A stretch of DNA of 20,963 nt from a virus. The stretch is taken from positions 1 to 20,963 of the IMG/VR virus record IMGVR_UViG_3300032053_000645; one strand, given 5' to 3'. The position numbers were made by a program, and so were the translations under genes. Shown piece by piece: positions 665-20,963 of this stretch. How positions within the stretch are numbered: position 1 is the first letter of the stretch; each line of letters starts with the position of its first letter. The notes below the pieces were generated by a model, which did not search any database, was not told where the DNA came from, and saw nothing but the letters and a program-made list of their open reading frames with translations.

Positions 665-3600
665 TTATTTTAAATATTCAGAGGTAATTTCTAAGGTAGT
701 GGTATTCATATCAAAATCATATTTTATACCTATAACTTTAGCATTTAAAGTTGTCCAGCTACCTTGTGCAGTATTTATTAAATTTACTGTTTTATCTAAG
801 TCCCAATCCAAATCTATGGTATCTAATGTTATTGAGCCGTTTACTTTAATATCCTTATATTTTTCTAATAAATCTGTCGCATACTCTGTCATTCTTAGGG
901 TATCGTCTACCAAATCTTCTGGGTCTTCACTATATTTAAAGCTTGTATTAACTATCCTTAATGTCTTACTAATTCCGCTGGCTGTTCCAGAAACAATAAC
1001 CTCAACCTTTAATGGGATTGTTTCTATCAAAATATCCGCCCCTACGTTAGCACACTCACGCCTTGTCTGCTCGCTTGCTATGCCAGCATCTACAGTATAA
1101 CCCAAAGTACTGTTAGTTGCCCCCCTAGGCCAAAAATTGTACATCTCTCTAGAAAACCTTATTGTATTATAAGTTCCTAAAGAACCCTGTTCTTCAATAA
1201 GACTAGTTTGACTCTTTTGTTTAACACCTGGAAGGTAGTGGTCATTACTAAGTCCAGAAGTATCTTCTGTTGTTTTTTGTATTTGCTCTTTTTCTGTTTT
1301 AATTATTTTATTATCCTGACAAATTTCAGTTTTTAAAAAAACACCAGACCAAGCTGTTATTTCTGAACCTAAAACAATTGGTATAAAAAACATCGCCTTT
1401 ACTCTATAATAACTTACAAAAGTTTCAATAATCTTCACAACGGGCCATTTTGAATCTATATGATATATTTTAAATCTATTATAGTCATCCCTACTTTCTT
1501 CATCCAATTGGTTTACTAAGCTTCCAGGCAACGTGCAGCTAGCATTTACCATAATTCGTTCAAGTTTCTTTGCTCCCTCAATTATACATTTATTATAACG
1601 ATTAGTTATATCAAACTGTAAATTAGCGGTCATAACATTATATTGAGGTGATATTGCGTTTACAGTTGTTCCATAAATTCCAAACTTTGCTTGCCCAGGA
1701 TTTATGGCTGTTAAATCTATCGACACTAGGCTACCATTCGGCCTCATATACCATCCATACTTAGTTTTAGAATAAATACTATCAAGAATGCTAGAAACAG
1801 TTTGTCCTATGTATTCGTCGGATATATTAGCCCCTACTGGATAACTCTCAATATTCTTAACAATCATTGGAAATTTAGAAACTATAGTATCAATTGCCGT
1901 ACTCAATGGAACGTCATTAAAAGTTATCTGAGCAGTTTCTCCATAATTTTCGTCAATAATATAAGCGTACTCCTCTGATAAATCTTGTCTAGGTCCAGAA
2001 CAGTTGTATATTACCCCCTCTTCCCCTATATCAATAGTTCTTTCTATTTGGGTTATCCTACCACTAAGCAGAGTTTCATTAGTTGCCCCATAAACAACAC
2101 AAATAGTCTCTCCCTCTGAGAAGGGTAGAGTAGAATCAAAATCAACGGGTAGAAAAAATCTACAAACTCTTGCACTATTAAAATCCCATGAAATTTCTTT
2201 AACATGAACTTCTTTTAAACTTTGTCTAAGTATAGTATTTCCACAAATAATTGCGGTATCATCCGTAAATACCTGTGTTCCATATATAAATATAAAAGAT
2301 TTTGTTTCTCCCCAATACCCTGTAGTAACATCATAAGCCCTAACCTTTAATACTGTTATACCATCTAAATAAACTCCTGGAGTATAATTATTAACAACCA
2401 AAAAAGAATCCCCTATATCTGGTTCTGTTCCATCTTCAGTATAATAATATCTAATTGGTCCTGGCTCTGTTGGTGCAGCATCCCATTCAAAATATGGTGT
2501 ATTGTCTGCGGTTTGATATAAACCATTAGCTAACTCAACAAGCTTTGTTCCATCTGTATAGCATTTAATTTCTCCGATAGTTGGGCTATCATCAGCAACC
2601 CAAATATTGAAAGTAGCAATATCACTCCATAAACCATTAACACACCTTCCTTTAACATTAAGTATATGCTGTCCAATAGATAATGGCTCAGCCAAAAATT
2701 TAGATAATTCTATATAAAATTGTCTTAAATCTGTTAATGTAACAACGCTATTATCAACCGCACCAGCGGGAACATAAGCCCGAGCTAATGCAATACTTTC
2801 CTCTGGTGTATCTGGAGGTAAAGGAGAAATATTCTCATCGCCATTTGCCACATACACATTTGCATCAATTCCGTTAATATAAATTATATCTATTCTATCA
2901 AGTGCTCCACCATTATCTAAAGTTATATTCGAGGCGGCTTCTTCTCGTAAATCATTATTACAATAAAAATAACCAGATGCTATATTAAAACCCATTCCAG
3001 ACCCTTTTGAAACTTCAATACCATTGCGAATAAGTGTTCCAGTAAATATACCAATTAAATCATTTGGTGCGTCGTCTAGTGCAAAACTAAAACCCTCGTA
3101 AGAAGTATTATACGTAGGAACAAGCCATCTAAAAAATGGGGTTTTATCTGTTTGATATGTGGAAGATGGAATTGGCGTCCCAGCACCAGAATCAGTATAA
3201 GCCTCAATAGTAACACTTGGTGGAATTATTGTATTAACCAGTCCAGTAATTACATCAGTTCCATCTGATAAAGTGCCTTGTATATCAGTAACCCTAACAA
3301 ATACCTGCTTAGCCCCATCTCCAGAACTTAAAGTCCATGCTTTTGTATTAGAAAAGACTTCCAAAGAAGACCAAGCACCAGACTCGTTTTTAAATTGCAT
3401 TTTAACAGCACCAGACACGTCTAACTTTATTGTTACAGAATTTGTAGATAAATAATAACCATCATAAAAATATAAACTATTTATAACTATTTGATTTAAG
3501 TTAATCCTATTAACAACCCTAATATCTGTAGCAATGTCAGAAAAACCTCTAGCTATAACACGTAGGTCTAAATCTATGTCCTTAATTATGGATTGAGCAA

Positions 3601-5767
3601 CTCTAAAATCTGTAACTATATCCTTTATAATATCATCTATTACCCTGATATCAGTATTAATATCATCAAAATATTGCCCAATGGTCCTAATATCTACATC
3701 AATATCCTTAAAATGTTCTTCTAGTTTTACACGTATGTCGATATTTACGTCTTCTATTGTCAGTTTACTCACCCGAATGTCCACATCCAGGTCTTTGAAA
3801 TGTTCTTCCAGTTTTGCTCTAATATCCGTATTAATATCTTCTATTACTTGTTCAGAAATTCTTATATCTGTATCCAAATCTATAAAATTAGGAAGAACTT
3901 CTTCTGCACCAAAACTTAATAATGCTAAATTATCACTAGCAATTCTCGCAGTTCTCCAAGCAGCGTCTCTATCAACTCCAATTGAAAATCTAACCTCATC
4001 CATATAACCATTAATAAAATAACCAGTATCAAAAACATTTCCAAATTGCCATCCGTGCGCCCTATCAACTAACGAATCTGGGTCTACTTGAGTACTACCA
4101 ACCTGCGTTCCATCTTTAAAAACCTTAAAATTACTCCCATTTCGTGTAATTTCTAAGTCATACCAATTAGCTAATCCAAAAGAAGGATTAATAGACCAAT
4201 CAATTGCCCCGCCACCACTATAATCTCTAAATCGTAGGGCTGTACCAACTCCAGAATCCGCCCCTACATAAAAATAACTGGCTCCATCGCTCCTACCTAA
4301 CAGCCCCCAGTTACTTCCAAAGGCTATAAACTTTACCTTCATACTAATAGTAAAGTTTTGATTTGTTAATTCAAGATTTGCAACATCGGGAATATTTATT
4401 TTTTTATTAGAAGCAAACTGCTGCCCTTTATAAATTTTTCCATCGGAGCAAGTCGGAGCAGACGAACCTTGCCCATTATTTGCGTTTACTGTAGAATCTT
4501 TGTATTCTCCTACTACCCCAGCTCCAACTTCACTTAAATGCCAAACACCCTTATGATTAGTATCCCAAACATTTACTTTATCTTCTCCATCAGTAGCTGT
4601 AGGTTTTCCATGATATAGGTAAATATAGGTATTAACTGTTCCTGAAACAGAGGGAACCTTTACCCAATAATAAGCGGTCTTGCTTGCTTCCAGCATCTCA
4701 ACTTCATAAAAGCCCCCTTCTGAAGAAGACCTATATGAACTCGTTATTTTTATTTTATAATGTCTATACGACGTGGGATTAGAAAAAGTATAGTCTTCCC
4801 AATTTGAATTATTTGCGTGATTACCACCATAAATAGAAGTCCAATCTGTATCCGTAGAATAATCGGGGCTTGCTATATTAGAACCATATAAAGTAAAACC
4901 ATTGCAGTAAGCATTACCAGCATAAATTGCTGGTTTTAATCTTAGTTTCCTAACAGCTTTTGAAATGCCTAAACCTAAATCATACCCCCACCAATGGGGT
5001 ACAGCAACGTAGGCTGGGGTAGACCATGATGTTGCCTCATTATTATCACACGCTTTTTCTGGGGTAGCACTACCATCTGAAGTACTAGCCGAGGGTGTTC
5101 CACCATTTAAAAAATCAGACGAATAAATTTCACCATGAAATTCTCGTTCATATTTCAATAGAGTAGTGCCATCGTCCGAAGTGAATCTAATATCGTATCC
5201 ATCACTCCTTGCATGGTCAAAATTAAAATTAGGAGGTATGGACTTTATGAATTCTACTTCCCATACGGATAGTATTGTAGTTTTCCAGCTACTTGTCATA
5301 TAAATTCTATAATATCTATACGCTGTAGTATTTACAAAAGTAAATAAACTTGATGTTACCATATCGGCATATTGAAATGTTCCAAGTGTATACCACGTAG
5401 AATCGTTATTTGAACCTTCTACAGTAAAATCCTTAAAAGCCGAATGAACATCATTAAAAGCATAAATATTAACAGCATCTATAATAGTAGCTACACCAAA
5501 ATCATATTTTAACCATTGAGGAAAACCACTATTATCAGAATTCCAGCGTGTTCCAGCATAGTCATCGTCAAAGGCCTTTGCAGCAGAATAAGTACTATTA
5601 TATTGGCTAGAGGCAGTAGCAGTTCCGGCTGGTGTAGTTAAATCAGAGGTATAATCAGTAACATTATTTAATTTAACCAGAACAGGAAAATCTGTTAAAT
5701 TAGCATCAACCTTAGTTTGGTCAATTATAATTTCCTTTTTATATGTCCAACCAGAAAGCCAACTAAT
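665..5767 (-). CDS. Tail hub protein with large N-terminal adhesin region (discoidin, DUF2341, LamG domains)
   Basis: About 1,700 residues. The first ATG is at 5362, but the frame stays open to a stop at 5785-5783 and codes for convincing protein: a SWLSGWTYKKEIIIDQ opening typical of DUF2341 modules, then the first half of a discoidin (F5/8C) domain. No ATG, GTG or TTG lies there; ATT at 5767, eight bases after AAGGGGG, is the best start. Domains: DUF2341 pieces at about 2-33, 180-206 and 368-389; discoidin-like domains at about 36-174 and 214-362; LamG-like 408-620; nine D-I-x-T-D-I-R repeats 630-750; Ig-like segments 755-1160; and from about 1165 a region resembling gp27-type tail hubs. 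The last part should form the tail-tip ring and the rest should bind host surface glycans. The hub assignment rests on pattern and gene order. Starting at 5362 would cut the first discoidin domain in half. Confidence 0.8.
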   Translation of the reverse strand: MSWLSGWTYKKEIIIDQTKVDANLTDFPVLVKLNNVTDYTSDLTTPAGTATASSQYNSTYSAAKAFDDDYAGTRWNSDNSGFPQWLKYDFGVATIIDAVNIYAFNDVHSAFKDFTVEGSNNDSTWYTLGTFQYADMVTSSLFTFVNTTAYRYYRIYMTSSWKTTILSVWEVEFIKSIPPNFNFDHARSDGYDIRFTSDDGTTLLKYEREFHGEIYSSDFLNGGTPSASTSDGSATPEKACDNNEATSWSTPAYVAVPHWWGYDLGLGISKAVRKLRLKPAIYAGNAYCNGFTLYGSNIASPDYSTDTDWTSIYGGNHANNSNWEDYTFSNPTSYRHYKIKITSSYRSSSEGGFYEVEMLEASKTAYYWVKVPSVSGTVNTYIYLYHGKPTATDGEDKVNVWDTNHKGVWHLSEVGAGVVGEYKDSTVNANNGQGSSAPTCSDGKIYKGQQFASNKKINIPDVANLELTNQNFTISMKVKFIAFGSNWGLLGRSDGASYFYVGADSGVGTALRFRDYSGGGAIDWSINPSFGLANWYDLEITRNGSNFKVFKDGTQVGSTQVDPDSLVDRAHGWQFGNVFDTGYFINGYMDEVRFSIGVDRDAAWRTARIASDNLALLSFGAEEVLPNFIDLDTDIRISEQVIEDINTDIRAKLEEHFKDLDVDIRVSKLTIEDVNIDIRVKLEEHFKDIDVDIRTIGQYFDDINTDIRVIDDIIKDIVTDFRVAQSIIKDIDLDLRVIARGFSDIATDIRVVNRINLNQIVINSLYFYDGYYLSTNSVTIKLDVSGAVKMQFKNESGAWSSLEVFSNTKAWTLSSGDGAKQVFVRVTDIQGTLSDGTDVITGLVNTIIPPSVTIEAYTDSGAGTPIPSSTYQTDKTPFFRWLVPTYNTSYEGFSFALDDAPNDLIGIFTGTLIRNGIEVSKGSGMGFNIASGYFYCNNDLREEAASNITLDNGGALDRIDIIYINGIDANVYVANGDENISPLPPDTPEESIALARAYVPAGAVDNSVVTLTDLRQFYIELSKFLAEPLSIGQHILNVKGRCVNGLWSDIATFNIWVADDSPTIGEIKCYTDGTKLVELANGLYQTADNTPYFEWDAAPTEPGPIRYYYTEDGTEPDIGDSFLVVNNYTPGVYLDGITVLKVRAYDVTTGYWGETKSFIFIYGTQVFTDDTAIICGNTILRQSLKEVHVKEISWDFNSARVCRFFLPVDFDSTLPFSEGETICVVYGATNETLLSGRITQIERTIDIGEEGVIYNCSGPRQDLSEEYAYIIDENYGETAQITFNDVPLSTAIDTIVSKFPMIVKNIESYPVGANISDEYIGQTVSSILDSIYSKTKYGWYMRPNGSLVSIDLTAINPGQAKFGIYGTTVNAISPQYNVMTANLQFDITNRYNKCIIEGAKKLERIMVNASCTLPGSLVNQLDEESRDDYNRFKIYHIDSKWPVVKIIETFVSYYRVKAMFFIPIVLGSEITAWSGVFLKTEICQDNKIIKTEKEQIQKTTEDTSGLSNDHYLPGVKQKSQTSLIEEQGSLGTYNTIRFSREMYNFWPRGATNSTLGYTVDAGIASEQTRRECANVGADILIETIPLKVEVIVSGTASGISKTLRIVNTSFKYSEDPEDLVDDTLRMTEYATDLLEKYKDIKVNGSITLDTIDLDWDLDKTVNLINTAQGSWTTLNAKVIGIKYDFDMNTTTLEITSEYLK
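3518..3880 (-). repeat. Nine tandem 14-15-residue D-I-x-T-D-I-R repeats inside the hub-adhesin gene
   Basis: Nine consecutive units begin with a variant of D-[ILV]-x-x-D-[IFL]-R (DLDTDIR, DINTDIR, DLDVDIR, DVNIDIR, DIDVDIR, DINTDIR, DIVTDFR, DIDLDLR, DIATDIR), each followed by 7-8 mostly hydrophobic or charged residues. Two units share the insert KLEEHFK almost exactly, visible in DNA as near-copies around 3708 and 3796, so part of the array arose by recent duplication. The array separates the LamG-like adhesin from the Ig-like and hub part and probably acts as a stiff or extensible stalk. The regular aspartates might bind a metal, which is inference. Confidence 0.85.
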
Positions 5768-5782
5768 TTTAATCGCCCCCTT
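5765..5782 (-). promoter_or_regulatory. Shine-Dalgarno and probable ATT start codon of the hub-adhesin gene
   Basis: On the minus strand AAGGGGG (5782-5776) can pair along seven positions with the 16S anti-SD sequence, with one G-U pair. Eight bases later comes ATT (5767-5765), then AGT TGG CTT TCT GGT TGG, the usual S-W-L-S-G-W opening of this protein type, which normally follows an ATG. The SD lies inside the last codons of the LAGLIDADG endonuclease gene, whose stop is at 5771-5769. A second in-frame ATT at 5773 is only two bases from the SD, too close. Either AUU is used as a rare initiator, or a point change or sequencing error hides an ATG. Confidence 0.6.
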
Positions 5783-6548
5783 TTATACATGGTTTTATCA
5801 GGCTTAAAAATCTAGTAGTTTCTTTATTTCCACCTAATATTCCAATATGATACAATGGTTTATTCTTTCTACCTTTATGAGTAGTTATATATTCGCTAAA
5901 CTTAAAATTAAGGTTATTTAAACAGCATTCTACTAGTTCTACCAAATTATTATTAGTATTATATATAGTTATTCTATAATTGTTTCTAGACCTATGTTCT
6001 ATCGTTCCCTCCGATTCATAAAATCCCCTAAGAAAAGCTACCATAAATTTTTTATTATTTAAAAGTTTTGCCCTCACTGTTCTAAAAGTTAATCCAGTAT
6101 ACCATTCATAAAACAATCTAGAATTTGCAATAATATGAAATTGCTTACTATGCCTATTATTTTTAGGTATTTTAACACTCATACTTGGATGTAGACCTAT
6201 TTTATTTAAAGATTTCATAAAAGATATGGCAAACTCTTTATTTACAACACCCAATCCTACCATATAATTATATCTCTTTCTATATACCCAACCATCACCA
6301 TAAGTAACACCTAAAATATAGCACATATTTTTATTCCATCTTAAATTAGGCGTTATCGTAACCTTACATATATTTTTACTATAAAATAATTTTAATTTTT
6401 CAGAAGGTGTTCTAAAGGAAATATTAAATTTTCTCATATAATATCTAATATTGGCTTCTGTACATTTATAAATTCTACCGATGTCTACGGTAGATAGTTT
6501 ATTACTCCAATACAACTGATATAAATATTCTTCAGTTATATTTACCAT
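5769..6548 (-). CDS. Free-standing LAGLIDADG homing endonuclease
   Basis: A 259-residue protein with two LAGLIDADG motifs: ILGVTYGDGWV (78-88, acidic residue D85) and FLRGFYESEG (172-181, acidic E180). These helices form the domain interface and place the two catalytic acids. An N-terminal stretch (about 17-45, STVDIGRIYKCTEANIRYYM) looks like a helix-turn-helix. The single-chain, two-motif design suggests a monomer making a double-strand break at a long asymmetric site. There is no room for an intron around it: the ATG overlaps the stop of the 182-residue gene (TAATG) and its stop lies one base before the next gene's predicted start, so it is intergenic. Many A/T-ending codons and dense Asn/Lys/Tyr usage fit a mobile gene. 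Confident on family; target site unknown. Confidence 0.9.
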   Translation of the reverse strand: MVNITEEYLYQLYWSNKLSTVDIGRIYKCTEANIRYYMRKFNISFRTPSEKLKLFYSKNICKVTITPNLRWNKNMCYILGVTYGDGWVYRKRYNYMVGLGVVNKEFAISFMKSLNKIGLHPSMSVKIPKNNRHSKQFHIIANSRLFYEWYTGLTFRTVRAKLLNNKKFMVAFLRGFYESEGTIEHRSRNNYRITIYNTNNNLVELVECCLNNLNFKFSEYITTHKGRKNKPLYHIGILGGNKETTRFLSLIKPCIKGGD

Positions 6549-7096
6549 TACTTAATCCCCATTTTCCATAATTTTTTGTCGGTTTCTCGTCCTCTATATT
6601 CTTGTCCCAATGGTAAAACTCTTTTTGTTATGTCACCAATTTGATATTTATCCTCGCCATTTTTACCATTCAAGGCTACCCTATAGGATGTTACCTCGCC
6701 ATTTTTTAGTCCCATAATATAAATATATTTATCCCCCTGTGGTACAACTAAATGCTTAAAATCTTGTATATTCCCAATCCAATCACATTTAGTACAACGA
6801 GCAACTAATTCTTGTTTAGTTTCATTATTTGTATATTTAGTAATTCTTTTGGATATTTTGCCCTTGCTATTACATTTTGGGCAGTTTCCTACAGGTCCTG
6901 CAATTGTAGTTTCAGCCTCAACAAAACAGAGATAAGACTCAAAGCCCTCTAAAATAATTCCTTCTCCGTCGGATAAAAAGTATTCCAGACGACTGATAGG
7001 GCGGTCTGGAATTTCTAACCAACGAGAATTATGTATGGAATTTCCACCTAGAAAAACTGAGGAGTCTTGAAAAACGATTCTAAAAATATTAGGCAT
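6548..7096 (-). CDS. Phage tail-region protein with an internal zinc ribbon, function unknown
   Basis: A 182-residue protein. The outer parts (FRIVFQDSSVFLGG and SRWLEIPDRPISRLEYFL at the N-terminus; KYQIGDITKRVLPLGQEYRG near the C-terminus) match a pattern I recall from small phage-encoded proteins, though I cannot name the family. Two CxxC pairs, C72-C75 and C101-C104, form a classical zinc ribbon inserted in the middle. ATG at 7096 is preceded by AAGGTGAT with about nine bases spacing, a fair SD. The gene is sandwiched between two homing endonuclease genes and its TAATG stop overlap feeds the downstream one. Before those insertions it would have joined the tail-tip candidate at 7991-8629 directly to the hub gene. 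A regulatory or assembly role is possible; nothing in the sequence decides. Confidence 0.7.
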   Translation of the reverse strand: MPNIFRIVFQDSSVFLGGNSIHNSRWLEIPDRPISRLEYFLSDGEGIILEGFESYLCFVEAETTIAGPVGNCPKCNSKGKISKRITKYTNNETKQELVARCTKCDWIGNIQDFKHLVVPQGDKYIYIMGLKNGEVTSYRVALNGKNGEDKYQIGDITKRVLPLGQEYRGRETDKKLWKMGIK

Positions 7097-7140: not shown

Positions 7141-7971
7141 TTATAAAATACCCATTTCTATCAATTGCTCTTTCTCTAAAACAGCTAAATTAATTAAAGG
7201 ATATTTCTTCCTAAATTCTAAAAACTTTTCTTTAGCGTCGTCTCTCCACCAGCCCTTAATTTCAATATACTCATCTGTTTCTGGTAAATAAAAATCTGGC
7301 CTATATGTTGTTTGCTTTCCGTTTGAATCTACTTTAAAAGCTACTGGCTCATAAACCCATTTTATATTATTAGAATCTAACCATTTTGCGTAAGCTATTT
7401 CGTAAGAACTCCTCATATAATAATTATTATATTTATTACCTTTACCATGTGTAACTTTTCCAAACATCGGATTGCCCACTCCAGACATTCTAATACTATG
7501 AGCTATTCCATTACATTTTACACATCTGGTTTTTCCATAGTTAATTTCTTTACCACAATCAATACACTTAGGCTTTCCATTTTTATATGTAAAACTTTTT
7601 TCACCTTTTGGATTATTAGAATGTCCCCTCATAATAGCACTATGTAATTTATATTTACATTCTTTACATATACCTCTTTTATGTAAAGCCGCTACTACAG
7701 ATATAGGATTTCCACATAATTTACAATAATATTGTTTAAGAGTTCTACCATCTATGTATCCAGGACAATTCTCCCCTAAATTTTCTTTTCTAAGAAACTC
7801 TATAGTTTCTTCAGTATGATGTTTACCATAAAAAGGATTTTTTTCTCCTAAAAAATATTTATTAACCACTTCTTTATTTTTCATAGGATTATGGTTTGTA
7901 AGAAAACATTCCCTACACCAAGTTGAAGAGTACTTTATCTTCTTACCACAATCTAAACAAAATTTAGGCAC
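7141..7971 (-). CDS. Free-standing homing endonuclease: zinc fingers, NUMOD3 motifs and PD-(D/E)xK nuclease domain
   Basis: A 276-residue protein with two parts. Residues 1-180 carry three CxxC...CxxC zinc fingers (C5/C8-C19/C22, C83/C86-C102/C105, C136/C139-C150/C153) mixed with NUMOD3-type DNA-binding motifs (NPFYGKHHTEET at 45-56, NPMFGK at 167-172). Residues 186-276 form a compact nuclease domain with SSYEIAYAKWL (E191), then RPDFYLPETDEYIEIKG, giving P225-D226...E237-I-K239, the PD-(D/E)xK signature. Together this indicates a sequence-specific nuclease that spreads its own gene. The start is GTG at 7971, six bases after AAAGGAG; an ATG at 7975 is out of frame and stops after three codons. 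It lies 19 bases after a tail gene and 44 bases before the next start, so it is an intergenic insertion. Strong on nuclease class; its target is not known. Confidence 0.88.
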   Translation of the reverse strand: MPKFCLDCGKKIKYSSTWCRECFLTNHNPMKNKEVVNKYFLGEKNPFYGKHHTEETIEFLRKENLGENCPGYIDGRTLKQYYCKLCGNPISVVAALHKRGICKECKYKLHSAIMRGHSNNPKGEKSFTYKNGKPKCIDCGKEINYGKTRCVKCNGIAHSIRMSGVGNPMFGKVTHGKGNKYNNYYMRSSYEIAYAKWLDSNNIKWVYEPVAFKVDSNGKQTTYRPDFYLPETDEYIEIKGWWRDDAKEKFLEFRKKYPLINLAVLEKEQLIEMGIL

Positions 7972-8645: not shown

Positions 8646-8996
8646 TTAATCGCCACTTCTGTAGAGTACTATTGTAAACCTTGACCATTTATAATAATCT
8701 GACCCAGGTGAAATAGATTTTAAAATACAGTTTGAATATGTATTATGATTTACTACTAAATCTGCTAAACCAGACCCAAAAGAAGCCGCTAACCCATCAA
8801 TATATAATTCCAATTCCTGCCTACTCATTTTTTTAACCCAACCAGATATATTTATTGTCTTAACACTACCGCCACGCCTACGCAATATAGCACCATCTGC
8901 TCTCGGAATCTTATGAATCTCAATTTCTAATTCTGTATCCACATTCATGTGGCAGAAGGACCCCAAATTTACGCCGTTAAATGACCCGTTGCTCAT
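8646..8996 (-). CDS. Probable distal tail protein (Dit-like), short form
   Basis: A 116-residue protein lying immediately after the tape measure gene, where distal tail (Dit) or equivalent hub-adaptor proteins are encoded. It opens SNGSFNGVNLGSF and continues with IPRADGAILRRRGG and VKTINISGWVKK, the pattern of a short beta-barrel domain in which the F-x-G-V-x-L loop and the central R-G-G precede an I-x-I-x-G strand. It is much shorter than two-domain Dit proteins, so only the ring-forming part would be present. Its ATG overlaps the tape measure stop (TAATG), giving tight coupling. Family assignment rests on position and fold-like pattern, not on a specific catalytic or binding motif. Confidence 0.6.
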   Translation of the reverse strand: MSNGSFNGVNLGSFCHMNVDTELEIEIHKIPRADGAILRRRGGSVKTINISGWVKKMSRQELELYIDGLAASFGSGLADLVVNHNTYSNCILKSISPGSDYYKWSRFTIVLYRSGD

Positions 8997-11900
8997 TATT
9001 CTAACCCCGCACCAATTCGTGCTTTATTTCTTCGGTCTGCTTCTGGTTTTATTGTTTGTCTACTTAATGCTGTTATATTACCCTCTTGTTCCATTACAAT
9101 TTTCTCTAAGTTATCCAATTTACCTTGTAGTAAAGTTAATAAGCCAGTTCTTTGAGACGGTCCTAAAATATTTTCAATTTTATCAGATTGGCCAATCATC
9201 TTTTTTATGGCTTCAACTTCTTCATTAGCTTTTAGGGTTTCTAAATCTATTTTTACTCCACCAATCTCCATATAGCCGCCACCCTTTTCAGGTCCTGTCT
9301 TACCACCCAACCCCTCTTTTCCTTTTTCTTTTCCTTTTCCAAGCCAATCTATTTCTGCAAGTGCTCCAGCTTTTATTTTTAATTCTTCCATAGTAGCTGC
9401 CATGTCTGCTCTAAATTGTTTATTAAACATTTTCCACGGCTTAGAAAAAGCAAGCATACTCATAGCAGCCAATTTTAAAGAAGGCCCAATTGCGCCAGCT
9501 AAAACAAACAGAGCAGCAAAATATCCTTTAACAATTGACAGTTCCCCTATAAAACTACCCAGAGTCCAAGCAGCTATTGCAACTCCTATTACCAATACTG
9601 CTTGCCAAATAAAAAGTAAAAGTGGTTTTAAACCAGCTAGAAGAGCAGCAGATAATGTAATCTTTAGGCCTAAAGAAGCCCAGAGAGCATTCAGAGCCAC
9701 AAGTAAAAATACAATATTCAACACACCGCCAAAGAGCTGAATAACTAAAGCAACAACAATCATTATTGGGCGAAGCGTATCTCTAATTCCTTTAGGAAGA
9801 GCCATCCAAGCCTCGGCTATTAATTTCACAGTACCTATAACTATCTTTCCCAAACCAATAAAAATATTGAGCGTATCTTTTACTATTGCGCCTAATTCTC
9901 CCTTTTTAAAGGACCCTATAAACCCCTCTATACCTTTCTTAATTCCGCTAAAAAATTGTAGAACATCTTTTGCTGTTAGTGTTGAAAGCCATTTTTTAAA
10001 ATCTGACGCTAACTCCTTTATTAATCCAGAGATGGGTTTTAAAGCATCCTGAACACCTGCTATAATAGTTTTAAAGATGCCCATCCTATTACCAACATTT
10101 ACTATATCAACAACGAAGTTACGAATAAAAAATATTGCTTCTGCTAATGGTTTTTTAAATTTTTCTGAAAAAGCTAATCCCAAGTCAACTATAGAAGCAA
10201 TTAAATCCCTAGTCCTACCTTTTACAGTAGTCCTAAAGGCTTGCGACATATCTTCTGCGGCTCCTTGAGAATTTCGTAAATCATTTGTTAATGAACTAAG
10301 AGCCGCAGAACCTCTACTAAGTAATGCTATCATTCCTGGACCACCACGTTGACCAAAAACTTCCATAGCTTGAGCAGCAGACATGCCCTTGGTTTTTAAA
10401 TCTCGTAAAATATCAGCAAAGGGCCTTAATTTTCCAGAAGATGTTACACCACTCACTCCCAATCCTTTTAATATTTTTTCTGCTTTTGCTGTTGGTGATA
10501 TTAATTCAGAAAAAGCTCGACGAAGGGTTGTCCCAGCCATGCTATTTCCGCAAACAATGACTTTTCCATTACGCCTTACTATTAATAGATGATTTTTAAC
10601 CTCAGCACAATATATTCTACCATCGTAATCTTCCCACTGTTCAATAATATTAGTCCCAAGTCCTTTTAATCTACTACTGTGCTTTGGTGATTTATATTCA
10701 GATTGATAAAAAGAGGGTGTTAAATGTTTTTTATTAATATATACTTCCCAACCAACGTGTGTTGAATATATTTTTCTATCTCTAATAATAGACTCTTCGC
10801 CAACTTCCATAACTTTTTGACTTTTAGCTCCAAAACCCAACTTTAACAATATTTCAACAAAATCGTCTCTTAATCTTACAGAAGAGGTATATAAATTTCC
10901 TTGACTATCTCCATCACCTTTTCTAAAGGCCTCATATAAAATATATAAATATTTTTTATCTAAGTCTTTTATATCCTCGGGAACGTACTTATCATAACAA
11001 TTACCTAATTTTGATAGGTAATTATACAACTGCTGATTTAGGATTACAAAATTAAAAGAATTATTATTTTTAACAATATTGTAGTGAACTGGTAACTTAT
11101 CTAAACAACTTTTTATACGGTAGAATGTAGCAGATTTATTTTGTGTTATACGAATCCTATAACTACCATTATTAAAATCACAACACCCTTCGGATAAATA
11201 ATAACCTAAAAATTCTACCCAAGTAGCCATATCTATTTTAACTGTTTTTATTTCTTTTTTCCAATTGCCCCTTCCCTGCTCAAACCCATCCAAAATAAAA
11301 AACTCTTGTTTTTTACCTTCCCAATTACAAGTACCAAGATATTCAGATTCTTTTCCAAATAAGTCCTCTGCCTTAATTCTTTCAAAAGCATCTTTTCCAC
11401 GTCTTCTAACATACATCCAGTGATTTGGTGTAACTTTTAAATCAATATGTTTATTTTTAACAACATACATTTTACCCTTATATGGTGCATTCACTAAACC
11501 AATAGGTTTTTGATACTCAATTTCATGTGTATTTGGATTAATAGTAGCAAAAATATCCTCCATAGAAACATCTGACCATTTTTTAAAGCCTTTCAAAGTT
11601 AAAACTTCAGTATCTTCATCATAGCAACCTTTTATACCAGCATCTGATAGTATACCAATAGCAGCAACTGTTTCTTCAATTGATATTCCAACACCTGCTG
11701 CAACAGGAGCAACATATTTAAAAGCTTCTGCCAAATCACTAACACTCATGCTTGCTTTAGAAGCACCTAAAGCCATAATATCAGCCACTCTCCTAGCCTC
11801 TGATGTTGAAAAATTGAAACTCCTCAATGCAGATATAACATAGTCAGCGGATTCTGCTAATTCCAAATTATCCGATATTGCAAGATTCATAACAGGCCCA

Positions 11901-12328
11901 ATAGAATTCAAAACTTCTCTAGTATTGAAACCTGCCCTAGCTAAAACTTGCATACCTTCAGCCGCATCAATAGCAGAAAATAGAGATTCCCTTCCTAATT
12001 CCAAAGCTTTACTCGTCATTCGTGAAAGAGAGTCCGCAGTAGCATTGCCTCCCTCTTTCATAATAACAAAGGCCCTCATCATTTCGTCTTCAAACTCTGC
12101 CCCAGCCGTAGCAGCTAAAGTAAAGCTACCTACTAAAGCAGCCAAACCAATTTGCAAGCCTTTTATAGCTACATCAGAAACCTGCCGAAAAGCTTCACCA
12201 ATTCCCCCAGTCAAACCTTCACTTAACAAAGAAAAGTCACGAATCAACGAAGAGGCTTGTGCAAGATTGGCTCTTAATTTTGATGTTGAGGCCGTGATTA
12301 CAACTTCTATTTCGCCTATTTTGACCAT
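8996..12328 (-). CDS. Tail tape measure protein (TP901-type), interrupted by an intein
   Basis: The 1,110-residue precursor contains a 361-residue intein (residues 235-595); removing it leaves 749 residues. The N-terminal extein has the TP901-type tape measure core: GFNTREVLNSIGPVMNLA, ALGASKASMSVSDLAEAFKY and IEETVAAIGILSDAGIKG, resuming after the intein as SMAGTTLRRAFSELISP. The central and C-terminal part (precursor about 830-960) holds several long hydrophobic segments, as usual for tape measures that may insert into the host membrane. The end is charged and helical. The protein sets tail length and is ejected ahead of DNA. AAGGAAA lies before the ATG. The gene follows the chaperone pair by nine bases and overlaps the next gene as TAATG. 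Unless the intein splices, the tail cannot form, because it splits the most conserved motif. Confidence 0.93.
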   Translation of the reverse strand: MVKIGEIEVVITASTSKLRANLAQASSLIRDFSLLSEGLTGGIGEAFRQVSDVAIKGLQIGLAALVGSFTLAATAGAEFEDEMMRAFVIMKEGGNATADSLSRMTSKALELGRESLFSAIDAAEGMQVLARAGFNTREVLNSIGPVMNLAISDNLELAESADYVISALRSFNFSTSEARRVADIMALGASKASMSVSDLAEAFKYVAPVAAGVGISIEETVAAIGILSDAGIKGCYDEDTEVLTLKGFKKWSDVSMEDIFATINPNTHEIEYQKPIGLVNAPYKGKMYVVKNKHIDLKVTPNHWMYVRRRGKDAFERIKAEDLFGKESEYLGTCNWEGKKQEFFILDGFEQGRGNWKKEIKTVKIDMATWVEFLGYYLSEGCCDFNNGSYRIRITQNKSATFYRIKSCLDKLPVHYNIVKNNNSFNFVILNQQLYNYLSKLGNCYDKYVPEDIKDLDKKYLYILYEAFRKGDGDSQGNLYTSSVRLRDDFVEILLKLGFGAKSQKVMEVGEESIIRDRKIYSTHVGWEVYINKKHLTPSFYQSEYKSPKHSSRLKGLGTNIIEQWEDYDGRIYCAEVKNHLLIVRRNGKVIVCGNSMAGTTLRRAFSELISPTAKAEKILKGLGVSGVTSSGKLRPFADILRDLKTKGMSAAQAMEVFGQRGGPGMIALLSRGSAALSSLTNDLRNSQGAAEDMSQAFRTTVKGRTRDLIASIVDLGLAFSEKFKKPLAEAIFFIRNFVVDIVNVGNRMGIFKTIIAGVQDALKPISGLIKELASDFKKWLSTLTAKDVLQFFSGIKKGIEGFIGSFKKGELGAIVKDTLNIFIGLGKIVIGTVKLIAEAWMALPKGIRDTLRPIMIVVALVIQLFGGVLNIVFLLVALNALWASLGLKITLSAALLAGLKPLLLFIWQAVLVIGVAIAAWTLGSFIGELSIVKGYFAALFVLAGAIGPSLKLAAMSMLAFSKPWKMFNKQFRADMAATMEELKIKAGALAEIDWLGKGKEKGKEGLGGKTGPEKGGGYMEIGGVKIDLETLKANEEVEAIKKMIGQSDKIENILGPSQRTGLLTLLQGKLDNLEKIVMEQEGNITALSRQTIKPEADRRNKARIGAGLE
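10544..11626 (-). mobile_element. LAGLIDADG intein in the tape measure protein
   Basis: The 361-residue intein begins with C1 in CYDEDTEVLTLKG (block A) right after extein GIKG, and ends GKVIVCGN before extein S-M-A-G. Block B has TPNH (66-69). The endonuclease motifs are FLGYYLSEG (E146) and LYEAFRKGDGD (D238, D240). Block F is IYCAEVKNHLLIV, with a Cys at about 340. The terminal pair is G360-N361 instead of the common H-N; Asn cyclisation without the penultimate His is known in other inteins. The +1 nucleophile is Ser. The catalytic set for splicing is otherwise present and both endonuclease acids are kept, so it is probably active both as intein and as homing enzyme. Confidence 0.93.
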
Positions 12329-14503: not shown

Positions 14504-14947
14504 TTACAATAAATCTAAGCGGGTTAAACGCAATTCGCAATGGTGAAGTTTTTCTCTTTCAAATAGCTCATCCACTACCAATACCTTATAATGCCTAGTT
14601 CCAATAAAAAGCTCATCATTCTCCATTATATTTTCTCCAGGACAAACAAATCCTCTATAATCGGCTGTAACTACTCCGCCTCGCGTCTCGACACGCAGCC
14701 CCTCTGCTGTTCTATTACGCTCCCTATCAACCCTAATCTTCAATGCAATATTAATTATGGGGGCAGTTGGGTAAGCTAGGAGAACCTCACCATAAGTATT
14801 AACGACTCTAACTGATTCATCAGAATCCCAGGGCCTTTTTTGAATGGCCACTTGATTCAACAACGCCTCAAAATTAGCATCACAAGGGGACCTAACAATT
14901 GCCTGTATATTAAATTGTGTATATAGTTTTTTGGTTGTATCTACCAT
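14504..14947 (-). CDS. Probable head-closure / head-tail joining protein
   Basis: A 147-residue protein, mostly beta strands, with FEALLNQVAIQKRPWDSDES near the start and ENDELFIGTRHYKVLVVDEL before a final LHHCELRLTRLD strand. The R-x-Y-K-V-x-x-V-D-x-x-F pattern followed by an H-x-x-x-x-L strand is common in head-closure (gp16- or gpFII-like) proteins. The order connector, closure, gp10-like, terminator supports it. Its ATG overlaps the stop of the upstream gene (TAATG). The protein probably seals the portal after packaging and provides the tail docking surface. No strictly diagnostic residue is visible, so the call is moderate. Confidence 0.65.
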   Translation of the reverse strand: MVDTTKKLYTQFNIQAIVRSPCDANFEALLNQVAIQKRPWDSDESVRVVNTYGEVLLAYPTAPIINIALKIRVDRERNRTAEGLRVETRGGVVTADYRGFVCPGENIMENDELFIGTRHYKVLVVDELFEREKLHHCELRLTRLDLL

Positions 14948-15291
14948 TATTTTATCCCAATTTTCTCATTTCTTACATTTATTGTAACATTATCGCCATT
15001 ATTACTTAAAACTAACTCTAACCAGGTATTCTCTCCTAAATTCTTAAAAATCCTTCTAGCAACCATTTTAGACTGTTCTGCACCTTGTTCTAGTATAAAA
15101 TCATCAGTCTGCCAAAATAGGCTTTTAGAGCCTTTTCTAGCAGATAATGTATAAAGTTTCTTATCTTCCCTTTGAAGTTGGATAGATGTTATATCCTCGG
15201 ACCAACCCCTTCTAAATGAAACTTCATTAGAATCCCAATCAGAAGTTGTAGTTTGCCCATCTTTTTTGTGTAATATCCAGCGTGTTCCCAT
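14947..15291 (-). CDS. Neck-region protein, unknown family, behind a structured leader
   Basis: A 114-residue protein from ATG at 15291 (MGTRWILHKKDG). It is rich in Trp, Lys and Ser with an alternating strand pattern (ITSIQLQREDKKLYTLSARK) and a final stretch NTWLELVLSNNGDNVTINVR. The frame also offers GTG at 15315 and ATG at 15309, adding eight or six residues, but those starts lie inside a hairpin and have no SD. A GAGG about 12 bases before 15291 is the only SD-like match, at a long spacing. Its stop forms TAATG with the head-closure gene. It may be a small adaptor of the head-tail interface; I do not recognise the family. Confidence 0.65.
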   Translation of the reverse strand: MGTRWILHKKDGQTTTSDWDSNEVSFRRGWSEDITSIQLQREDKKLYTLSARKGSKSLFWQTDDFILEQGAEQSKMVARRIFKNLGENTWLELVLSNNGDNVTINVRNEKIGIK

Positions 15292-15303
15292 ATAATAAAA
15301 AAT

Positions 15304-15327
15304 CCTCATAGGCACAAGCTTATGAGG
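15304..15327 (-). terminator. Hairpin with T-run in the leader: intrinsic terminator or SD-sequestering stem
   Basis: On the minus strand CCTCATA and TATGAGG form a perfect 7-bp stem; after an A-C mismatch the GC/GC inner pairs close a TTGT loop. It is followed immediately by ATTTTTT, the layout of a rho-independent terminator. The second arm also contains the only SD-like sequence (GAGG) for the ATG at 15291, so the same stem could mask translation. The stem is short and not very GC-rich, so termination would be partial. It supports attenuation at the entry to the neck genes but is not proof. Confidence 0.5.
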
Positions 15328-17464: not shown

Positions 17465-20400
17465 TTATGTCCACATTGGAATATAATACCGAGTTCCAGA
17501 TATATCTACCAAAAGCCACCTTGAAATCCCAGACGTTCCTATACCAGCAGGACCAACGCTTGAGACAACCACAGCGTTACTTCCATTTGCTACATCACAA
17601 CCATCAATTCTAATACCAGCCACAGCGTCACTGATAGCTCCGTTGTGGTCAATATATAAAGAAGCACCTGTTCCATCTTGTTGTAAAACTAATAAATCTT
17701 TATCAGAACTAGCATTATCCTGTACAAAATTAACCAAAGGAGCATTTACTTGTGCTGAATTTGAATAAACATATAAACCATACTTATTTGCTGCTAATAC
17801 ACCGTCTTGGTGAATGTATAAAGCATGGTTTGTTCCATCATTATTAATTTCTTGAGCAATACCATTTCCATATTGTTCTATAAATAAAGCAACACCAGTA
17901 CCATAATTTTCTATAACAACAACTTCTCTATTTGTACTTGCATTATGTTGTTCAGCCCATATCATGCAAGTATTTGAATTTGTTTGAGCAGTATTTGAAT
18001 AAACAAATAAACCACGCTGATTTACTGCTAGTACACCATCTTGGTGAATGTAAAGTCCGTGGTTTGTTCCGTCGTTATCAATTTCTACAGCAGTTCCATT
18101 ACCATTCTGAATTATTAATACTCCAATACCAGTACCGTCATTAATTGTCGTTAATGCTCCATAAGTTGAAGAAGCATTATCTTGTTTTATCTTAACTAAT
18201 TCAGTATTACCACTAGTTTGTACAGCATTTGAGTAGACATAAAGTGCATGGTAATCTGTACCTAATATTCCAACCTGGTCTATGTATTGACCAAAATAAG
18301 TATTATTAAATTGGAAATATACTCCATAACTAGCATTACCATTTTGAATAATAGTTAGACCAATACCAGTACCATCATTATTGATAGTAACTACTCCTGA
18401 TGTAGAACTAGCGTTGTCTTGTTGAAAATAAGCTAAAGGAGCATTTACTTGTGCTGAATTTGAATAAACATATAAACCATACTTATTTGCTGCTAATACA
18501 CCATCTTGGTGAATGTAAAGAGCGTGCTTAGTACCGTCATTGTTTATTTCAGCACATATTGGATTATTAGTAGTGTCTAATTGTTCTATTAAAAGTGTTT
18601 GTTGATTTGTTGCCGAAGCACTTTGAACATGTAATCTTGCTGTAGGACTTGCTACACCTACTCCTAATCTACCATTTGTTTTATCTGTATAAATAAACCC
18701 ACTACTATCAACAGGTTTATCAGCAAAGGCAAAGGCACAAGAACCTTCTAAGAGCATTGCTCCGTCAAAGTAGGCGGAAGTGTCGCCTGTGCTTACAAAG
18801 CAAGATAGGCTTACTGAAGAGGCACTTATATTTATAGTTGAACTTACATTTAACCATTGCCAAGTAGAATTACCTGTATGATAAGGAGAATATACAACAC
18901 CGCTTTCAGGGTCATAAATACGAAGGCAAGCCCTATTTGCTACAGTAGCATACACCCAACAACCAAAAGTTATAGTTCTCCCTCTCCAATAAACCAATCC
19001 TTTAATATTTACAAAAGTATCATTATATATTTGACTATCTACTCCACCTCTTGTTAATTTTGTTGAATAAGTACCTATTTTTACTATTGTGCTTTCTCTT
19101 GCTACATTCCCTCCTGCTCCATTATATATCCACCCATCAGGAGCAGCACTAGCCCCTGCCGACCATAATTCAAAATCGCCATTAGTAATAAGATTTGTAG
19201 GATTGGTGTTAGTAAAACAGTTACCAACAATAGTATTAGTCTTAACTGCAAATACACTTCCATCTTCTATATCGTAACCAGAACCATCATTCTGTATCTT
19301 TAATACTGATTGAGTAGAACTAGCATTATCTTGTACAAAATAAATTAAAGGTGTATTTACTTGTACTGCATTTGAATAAACATATAATGCCCATTTAGAT
19401 GCTGCTAATACTCCATCTTGGTGAATGTATAAACCATGATTAGTTCCATCATTATTTATTTCAGCACATTGAGGATTATTAGTAGTGTCTAACTGTTCAA
19501 TTAAAAGTGCCTGGACATTTTTAGTAGCTGCAACATTAACATGAAGTCTAGTAGATGGCGTATCTGTACCTATACCAACATACCCTTCTTTGGTAAGGGT
19601 CATATTATTATTACTAACACCCGCAATGTAAGTCCTTAAAAACATTTTTCCAGAATTATCTGCTCCATCACGACTACCGTAAATATCGCAAATTATATTA
19701 TCTACAGCAGACACATCCCTAATTGTAAATGTAATTTGACAACCAAAACCATCTACCATATCAGCAGTAGTTCGGTGCTGTATTACCAAAACACCCCTAT
19801 TACCATTAGTATCAGCCGTAGTCCTAACAAATTGACCCACTGGGTAATCTGGACTAATAACCTCTAATTTACCAGCTGGAGAATCAGTTCCAATCCCCAC
19901 ACAACCTTCTTTGGTAAGGGCCATATTATTAAGTCTAACACCCGCATTATAGGTACTTAAATACATCTTCCCAGAATTATCTGCTCCATCTCGTTCTATA
20001 TGAATATCTCCAATAGTATTATCAACATTAGAAGTATCCCTAATCTCAAAACTAACAACTACACCTAACCCATTTATCATATCCCCACCAGTACGCTGCT
20101 GTAATGCTATTACTGTTCTTCCTCCAGTAGTGGCCGATGGGTCAGTTCTTATAATTCTAGTAGCTGGAGCCGCTGGGCCAAAAACCTCAAGAGCAGGTTT
20201 AGTAGAACTAGCGTTATTCTGAACTATCGAAACTAAAGGAGCATTAACTTGTGCAGCATTAGAATAAACATATAAACCATATTTAGAAGCTGCCAAAACT
20301 CCATCTTGGTGAATGTATAAACCATGATTAGTTCCATCATTCTTTATTTCAGCACATTGAGGATTATTAGTAGTGTCTAGTTGTTCAATTAAAAGTGCCT

Positions 20401-20963
20401 GGACATTTTTAGTAGCTGCAACCTGAACATGCAGTCTAGTAGATGGCGTATCTGTTCCTATACCAACATACCCTTCTTTGGTAAGAGCCATGTTATTATT
20501 ACCAACACCCGCATTATAGGTACTTAAATACATCTTCCCAGAATTATCTGCTCCATCTCGTTCTATATGAATATCTCCAATAGTATTATCAACATTAGAA
20601 GTATCCCTAATCTCAAAACTAACAATTACACCTAACCCATTTATCATATCCCCACCAGTACGCTGCTGTAATGCTATTACTGTTCTTCCTCCAGTAGTGG
20701 CCGATGGGTCAGTTCTTATAATTCTAGTAGCTGGAGCCGCTGGGCCAAAAACCTCAAGAGCAGGTTTAGTAGAACTAGCGTTATTCTGAACTATCGAAAC
20801 TAAAGGAGCATTAACTTGTGCAGCATTAGAATAAACATATAAACCATATTTAGAAGCTGCCAAAACTCCATCTTGGTGAATGTATAAACCATGATTAGTT
20901 CCATCATTATTTATTTCAGCACATTGAGGATTATTAGTAGTGTCTAACTGTTCAATTAAAAGT
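17465..20963 (-). CDS. Repetitive fibre-like structural protein, 5' end outside window
   Basis: At least 1,165 residues, open to the window edge; a TTG at 20863 is an ordinary internal Leu codon and not a start, because the repeat pattern continues upstream of it. The chain repeats modules such as LLIEQLDTTNNP, EINNDGTNHGLYIHQDGVLA and YGLYVYSNAAQVNAPL, joined to GYVGIGTDTPSTRLHV units, common in trimeric phage fibres. The short strands with N-D-G-T turns suggest a beta-helical stalk. Codons in 18720-19200 encode a jelly-roll, CBM-like domain starting NLITNGDFELWSAG with later W and G-x-Y-S-x-K-L positions, a possible carbohydrate-binding module. The C-terminus (GISRWLLVDISGTRYYIPMW) lacks an S74 chaperone domain. 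Location ahead of the connector genes is unlike ordinary tail fibres; a head fibre is possible. Confidence 0.82.
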   Translation of the reverse strand, partial: LLIEQLDTTNNPQCAEINNDGTNHGLYIHQDGVLAASKYGLYVYSNAAQVNAPLVSIVQNNASSTKPALEVFGPAAPATRIIRTDPSATTGGRTVIALQQRTGGDMINGLGVIVSFEIRDTSNVDNTIGDIHIERDGADNSGKMYLSTYNAGVGNNNMALTKEGYVGIGTDTPSTRLHVQVAATKNVQALLIEQLDTTNNPQCAEIKNDGTNHGLYIHQDGVLAASKYGLYVYSNAAQVNAPLVSIVQNNASSTKPALEVFGPAAPATRIIRTDPSATTGGRTVIALQQRTGGDMINGLGVVVSFEIRDTSNVDNTIGDIHIERDGADNSGKMYLSTYNAGVRLNNMALTKEGCVGIGTDSPAGKLEVISPDYPVGQFVRTTADTNGNRGVLVIQHRTTADMVDGFGCQITFTIRDVSAVDNIICDIYGSRDGADNSGKMFLRTYIAGVSNNNMTLTKEGYVGIGTDTPSTRLHVNVAATKNVQALLIEQLDTTNNPQCAEINNDGTNHGLYIHQDGVLAASKWALYVYSNAVQVNTPLIYFVQDNASSTQSVLKIQNDGSGYDIEDGSVFAVKTNTIVGNCFTNTNPTNLITNGDFELWSAGASAAPDGWIYNGAGGNVARESTIVKIGTYSTKLTRGGVDSQIYNDTFVNIKGLVYWRGRTITFGCWVYATVANRACLRIYDPESGVVYSPYHTGNSTWQWLNVSSTINISASSVSLSCFVSTGDTSAYFDGAMLLEGSCAFAFADKPVDSSGFIYTDKTNGRLGVGVASPTARLHVQSASATNQQTLLIEQLDTTNNPICAEINNDGTKHALYIHQDGVLAANKYGLYVYSNSAQVNAPLAYFQQDNASSTSGVVTINNDGTGIGLTIIQNGNASYGVYFQFNNTYFGQYIDQVGILGTDYHALYVYSNAVQTSGNTELVKIKQDNASSTYGALTTINDGTGIGVLIIQNGNGTAVEIDNDGTNHGLYIHQDGVLAVNQRGLFVYSNTAQTNSNTCMIWAEQHNASTNREVVVIENYGTGVALFIEQYGNGIAQEINNDGTNHALYIHQDGVLAANKYGLYVYSNSAQVNAPLVNFVQDNASSDKDLLVLQQDGTGASLYIDHNGAISDAVAGIRIDGCDVANGSNAVVVSSVGPAGIGTSGISRWLLVDISGTRYYIPMWT
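17795..20885 (-). repeat. Dispersed repeat encoding the I-H-Q-D-G-V-L module, six copies
   Basis: The plus-strand string CCATCTTGGTGAATGTA, or one-base variants, recurs at about 17802, 18036, 18501, 19413, 20301 and 20868. Each encodes Y-I-H-Q-D-G within a longer unit of about 25-30 residues that ends in an A-x-K/Q-x-x-L-Y/F-V-Y-S-N strand. Copies differ by synonymous changes and by neighbouring modules, indicating older duplication followed by shuffling. These are in-frame protein repeats and not a CRISPR: units differ and there are no uniform spacers. Confidence 0.85.
19910..20963 (-). repeat. 567-bp in-frame direct repeat in the fibre gene
   Basis: Positions 19910-20396 and 20477-20963 are nearly identical with a constant offset of 567 bp (189 codons); I find only about a dozen mismatches by eye over 487 bases, mostly clustered at the left end. 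The second copy is cut by the window edge and may continue. A third, partly matching segment at about 19410-19585 repeats the stretch 20300-20480. Near identity means recent duplication or gene conversion. Since the unit is a multiple of three, copies can be gained or lost without breaking the frame, changing fibre length. Confidence 0.9.

Follow-up and report, generated by a model that had tools for sequence, protein, structure and literature searches.

The tail-gene region and the hub reading frame

The window, that is the whole stretch of DNA analysed, is a 20,963-base virus record on a single contig. Its tail-region genes lie on the minus strand in the order tape measure, small tail gene, gene 8629, an endonuclease-like gene, gene X, a LAGLIDADG endonuclease and a hub/adhesin-like gene, the last being named from its domain content and the gene order. 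The features that bear on the start of the hub gene are as follows.

8996-12328 (-): tape-measure gene
8996-8646 (-): small tail gene, adjoining the tape measure
7971-7141 (-): endonuclease-like gene (Phage_endo_I, NUMOD3), between gene 8629 and gene X
6548..7096 (-): gene X, conserved, 182 aa, with a TAA that shares bases with the endonuclease ATG
5769..6548 (-): LAGLIDADG homing endonuclease gene, 259 aa, with an I-DmoI-like double motif
6546..6548 (-): endonuclease ATG inside TAATG, at the position of the relatives' hub start codon
5765..6545 (-): 781 bases between ATG and AGT TGG that endonuclease-free relatives lack
5776..5783 (-): Shine-Dalgarno (SD) sequence AAAGGGGG, overlapping the 3' end of the endonuclease gene
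5769..5771 (-): endonuclease stop TAA, one base ahead of the hub AUU
5765..5767 (-): AUU (ATT), proposed hub initiation codon, aligned with M1 of endonuclease-free homologues
665..5767 (-): hub/adhesin-like tail gene, 1700 aa counted from the AUU, with Laminin_G_3, DUF2341 and F5/8 domains
5255..5620 (-): F5/8 type C (discoidin) domain of the hub, containing ATG 5362
5360..5362 (-): ATG, first standard start of the hub frame, rejected as initiator

Beginning at 5782, directly after TAA 5785-5783, the hub reading frame continues uninterrupted to the stop at 665-667; ATG, GTG and TTG are all absent from it ahead of ATG 5362, as the first-pass annotation had claimed. ATG 5362 is residue 141 of the translated frame (P0001) and falls within the F5/8 type C domain (residues 55-176), which agrees with the earlier remark that half a discoidin domain lies upstream of it. 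A gene finder restricted to standard starts would choose this ATG and lose the 135 codons that separate it from ATT 5767-5765, an omission that had been foreseen and that the ORF listings used here did make. However, there is next to no chance that the hub begins there: no SD pairing was found at ATG 5362, and a start at this codon would cut the F5/8 domain and drop a conserved N-terminus. The near-N-terminal F5/8 domain itself (5255-5620) is an insertion relative to the related phage G001, whose sequence runs on without it.

The gene between X and the hub matches LAGLIDADG_3 with an E of 1.5e-13. Its nearest solved enzyme is I-DmoI, the alignment to which covers both motifs (YILGVTYGDG and FLRGFYESEG), with the acidic residues D and E of both aligned with those of I-DmoI. 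No relatives of the endonuclease were found in viral contigs, genomes or plasmids, while phages gave weak N-terminal matches only, and a single-sequence structure model was poor (pLDDT 42). The search for a close cultured phage likewise returned none, the terminase being nearest to those of Bacillus phage G and Streptomyces phage BRock, both distant.

The endonuclease-free allele and the AUU codon

Six relatives were found in IMG/VR with gene X as query, and in all six, which are free of the endonuclease, the X/hub boundary reads TAATG, so that the stop codon of X and the hub ATG overlap (TAATG AGT TGG; in L002, for example, GGGATTAAATAATGAGTTGGTTAAGCGG). Two more distant phages, L060 and L061, have the same TAATG boundary, which brings the empty site to eight relatives. 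The window instead reads GGGATTAAGTAATG, then 781 bases ending in ...AAAAGGGGGCGATTAAAATT, then AGTTGGCTTTCTGG; the 781 bases are the endonuclease and its last bases, and hub coding resumes at AGT TGG after ATT 5767. Since the same TAATG starts the endonuclease in the window, the endonuclease holds the old start of the hub, and ATT 5767 stands exactly at hub residue 1, as had been proposed from the sequence alone. The endonuclease-free site TAATGAGTTGG is the presumed target of the endonuclease. The exact window allele occurs on one contig only, and no further copies of the exact junction were found in IMG/VR. A duplication of the target site at the 3' junction was considered and dropped, because the similarity to the ancestral site was weak, being equalled by 2% of shuffles with the best relative and 11-29% with the remaining ones, and higher scores were obtained at other start regions of the window.

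These junctions are clean relative to the relatives, and I-DmoI is encoded in an archaeal intron; both would suit an intron whose splicing rejoins ATG with AGT TGG. We consider this very improbable. A coding frame fills the whole insert, and neither a group I boundary (U before, G at the intron end) nor a group II boundary (intron ending in AU) would restore ATG AGT in frame. A search for a group I or II catalytic RNA core at the insert gave no Rfam match at the gathering threshold or at E 5, and for a bulge-helix-bulge intron the duplex energy of the junction flanks was no better than in shuffles (fraction 0.47).

Initiation at the AUU is supported by the sequence around it. AAAGGGGG forms eight contiguous pairs with the anti-SD, one of them G.U, at -13.65 kcal/mol and with a spacer of 8 nt, within the range of 5-9 nt; the first-pass annotation had the spacing right but had counted a match of seven positions. 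Sites equally strong occur at 0.42% of minus-strand positions, and among the 722 minus-strand ATT triplets one has an SD as strong, namely ATT 5767 itself, whose SD also ranks with the strongest scored for window genes. A clear SD site precedes most genes of the window, so the host uses such sites. The other ATT near the beginning of the hub frame, at 5773, has its best helix merely 3 nt away.

Protein conservation points to the same codon. ATT 5767 aligns with M1 of every endonuclease-free hub homologue, and conservation begins at residue 2, with 75% identity to G001 over residues 2-36 (pN 0.17, pS 0.60), which bears out the earlier impression that the region upstream of ATG 5362 is conserved; the motif SWLSGW is common to the window hub and that of L002. 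This conserved N-terminus has no standard start. AUU 5767 is thus supported as by far the best hub initiator, as judged from sequence, and the alignment with endonuclease-free homologues that had been suggested as a check agrees with it. It is not a conserved AUU of the infC type, the hub homologues having ATG. The local RNA fold pairs the hub AUU and is not special, which counts against this reading, and RNA structure at the hub and tape-measure AUU codons did not depart from expectation (z between -0.9 and +0.9).

Two further readings would leave the AUU without a role. In the first, the hub allele is not expressed, having recently been broken by the insertion and being complemented by endonuclease-free phages; no standard start is left, and a recent insertion could still have left the frame intact. 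The strong, well-spaced SD ahead of the ATT speaks against this, as do tape-measure genes with ATT or ATA starts scattered over a tree of relatives, which indicate that such alleles persist, and we give it only a slim chance. In the second, a +1 frameshift near the endonuclease end (AAA GGG GGC GAT TAA), where the two frames overlap by 14 bases at a G run, would yield an endonuclease-hub fusion. This is highly improbable, as the usual +1 slippery arrangement is absent, the fusion would place 259 aa ahead of a conserved tail N-terminus and the strong SD would be left unexplained.

Start codons and mobile-type ORFs in related tail genes

Gene starts were also compared across the relatives. The tape-measure gene, compared in 13 phages, starts with ATT or ATA in up to five of them and with ATG or GTG in the other eight. 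G001 and L044 have ATT at residue 1 behind GGAGGT or GGGGGT (TTGGAGGTAACTTAAA ATT GTA AAA ATA, L002:2530-2560, and ATTGGGGGTAACTTAAA ATT GTA AAA ATT, L044:3690-3710), and since a stop stands three codons upstream and standard codons are absent close by, the ATT is the only possible start. For the remaining three, ATT or ATA starts are probable but not certain: G005 (GAAGGGGTGAGTCTA ATT), L045 (AGGGGGTGAGTCCA ATA) and L051 (GGGGGTGGATGAC ATT, one codon shorter) all have a strong SD, with an in-frame GTG three codons upstream that lies inside the SD and has no SD of its own. A noisy all-against-all ORF screen of the relatives for non-standard starts singled out the G001 tape measure alone; ORF callers would place the start of this gene roughly 35 codons downstream, at an internal TTG.

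The SD sequences of the six non-canonical starts, at -12.0 to -18.0 kcal/mol, exceed in strength the -6.9 to -12.6 kcal/mol of canonical starts of the same two genes (P = 0.0004, a value that is indicative only, the rows being related). In a tree of the tape-measure N-terminus the non-canonical rows are scattered, the best tree requiring five changes, at least two of which are forced by well-supported branches. These cases bear on the possibility that base 5765 is not T, through a base or assembly error, and that the hub begins with ATG. The window allele is known from a single contig and the relatives have ATG, which would suit such an error. However, ATT or ATA stands at the start of another tail gene in other contigs, in G001 and L044 with no alternative start, and cases that all fall at the same codon position cannot be errors together; a sequencing error at the hub ATT is therefore unlikely, with only a small chance left to it.

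Endonuclease-type ORFs are found at other tail-gene starts as well. In G001 an HNH/NUMOD3 endonuclease lies at the start of the small tail gene (window 8996), as in G003, where an ORF resembling it opens with the site and first codons of that gene (GCGGGGTTAGAATAATGAGCAA) and the small tail gene has a new ATG behind the ORF. The endonuclease-type ORFs on the small tail gene start, at L004:6233-6955 and L002:4788-5645, use its ribosome-binding site. Related zinc-ribbon ORFs without a Pfam match, which we read as endonuclease-like, lie at the tape-measure start site in G002, G005 and L042. With the hub, a mobile-type ORF appears to have taken the initiation region at three tail genes. The SD and ATT of G005 resemble the start of L045, where such an ORF is absent; the odd start of G005 may therefore predate the insertion.

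Other mobile-type sequences occur in the same region. The endonuclease-like ORF at 7141-7971 has an HNH/NUMOD3 counterpart at the same boundary in G001 and none in G002, G003 and G005. Within the tape measure, residues ~235-600 form a long insert that matches LAGLIDADG_3 weakly, beginning with CYDEDTEV and ending with VIVCGN-S; homology halts at residue 234 and resumes beyond the insert, which is probably an intein.

Proposed start-codon capture and known systems

Taken together, we favor start-codon capture by a free-standing homing endonuclease, with an extended SD to rescue initiation at the AUU, and assign this reading a probability of about 0.83. The endonuclease gene sits exactly after the former hub start codon; it would have taken this codon and the ribosome-binding site from the hub and split its own target, as is usual in homing genes. 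Translation of X would end at UAA and re-initiate at the captured AUG to give the endonuclease; this in turn would end at UAA 5771-5769, with initiation or re-initiation of the hub one base later at AUU 5767, aided by the extended SD AAAGGGGG encoded in the last codons of the endonuclease. The weak AUU probably lowers hub output, which may be acceptable for a low-copy tail protein. The AUU may have come with the insertion or may be older; the L045 tape measure has a similar SD with AUA and no endonuclease.

Both parts of this arrangement have precedents. In phage T4 the free-standing homing endonuclease gene mobE, between nrdA and nrdB, overlaps the upstream stop as UAAUG, and translational coupling has been proposed (PMC2988022). 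The window endonuclease starts in the same way, but it also holds the start of the downstream gene, leaving an AUU there, and it is a LAGLIDADG enzyme whereas MobE is HNH. Cellular genes initiated at AUU include infC and pcnB of Escherichia coli and cvfC1 of Staphylococcus aureus, the last with an extended SD, as in the window, and about 10% of the output of AUG (PMC13009471). In these genes the AUU is conserved or regulatory, while in the window it belongs to a phage tail gene and adjoins a mobile gene. A phage gene with a predicted AUU start and a sequence confirmed by resequencing is orf28 of Streptococcus phage TP-J34 (PMC3952083); it lies in another gene region (the primers are named terS), and the passage on this gene describes no mobile element. 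In ShiLan, a hidden HNH endonuclease is inserted in a phage methylase (PMC11855218), like the window insert with no detectable splicing element and with a stop codon in its last bases, but it lies inside the gene and is read through, whereas the window endonuclease is at the start codon. No case of a non-AUG start left by a homing endonuclease was found in the literature covered, which is incomplete. AUU starts have been described before, and so have UAAUG-coupled endonucleases; the new part is their combination and recurrence.

A broader and more tentative reading, which we hold to be possible rather than probable, is that AUU and AUA are regular, repeatedly evolved starts of large low-copy tail genes (tape measure and hub), with extended SD sequences and perhaps with sensitivity to IF3, and that the start codons of tail genes are a recurrent landing place of homing endonucleases, which take over the initiation signals of these genes. 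Published work shows that IF3 acts against non-canonical start codons; an IF3 gene was looked for in these phages and none was found. If the hub is translated as proposed, a phage can survive the capture of a tail-gene start signal by a mobile gene, and versions of one gene that naturally begin with AUU or AUG become available for testing how far SD strength makes up for a poor start codon. For annotation, gene finders limited to ATG, GTG and TTG would trim 135 residues from the hub and about 35 from the G001 tape measure, as happened in the ORF listings used here.

Two other minus-strand ORFs of the window deserve mention. An open-ended ORF of more than 1160 residues at 17465-20962, with repeats such as NNDGTNHGLYIHQDGVLAASKYGLYVYSN, is probably a tail fibre. 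At 14947-15315 the listed GTG start is doubtful, as relatives align only a few residues later, near MGTRW.
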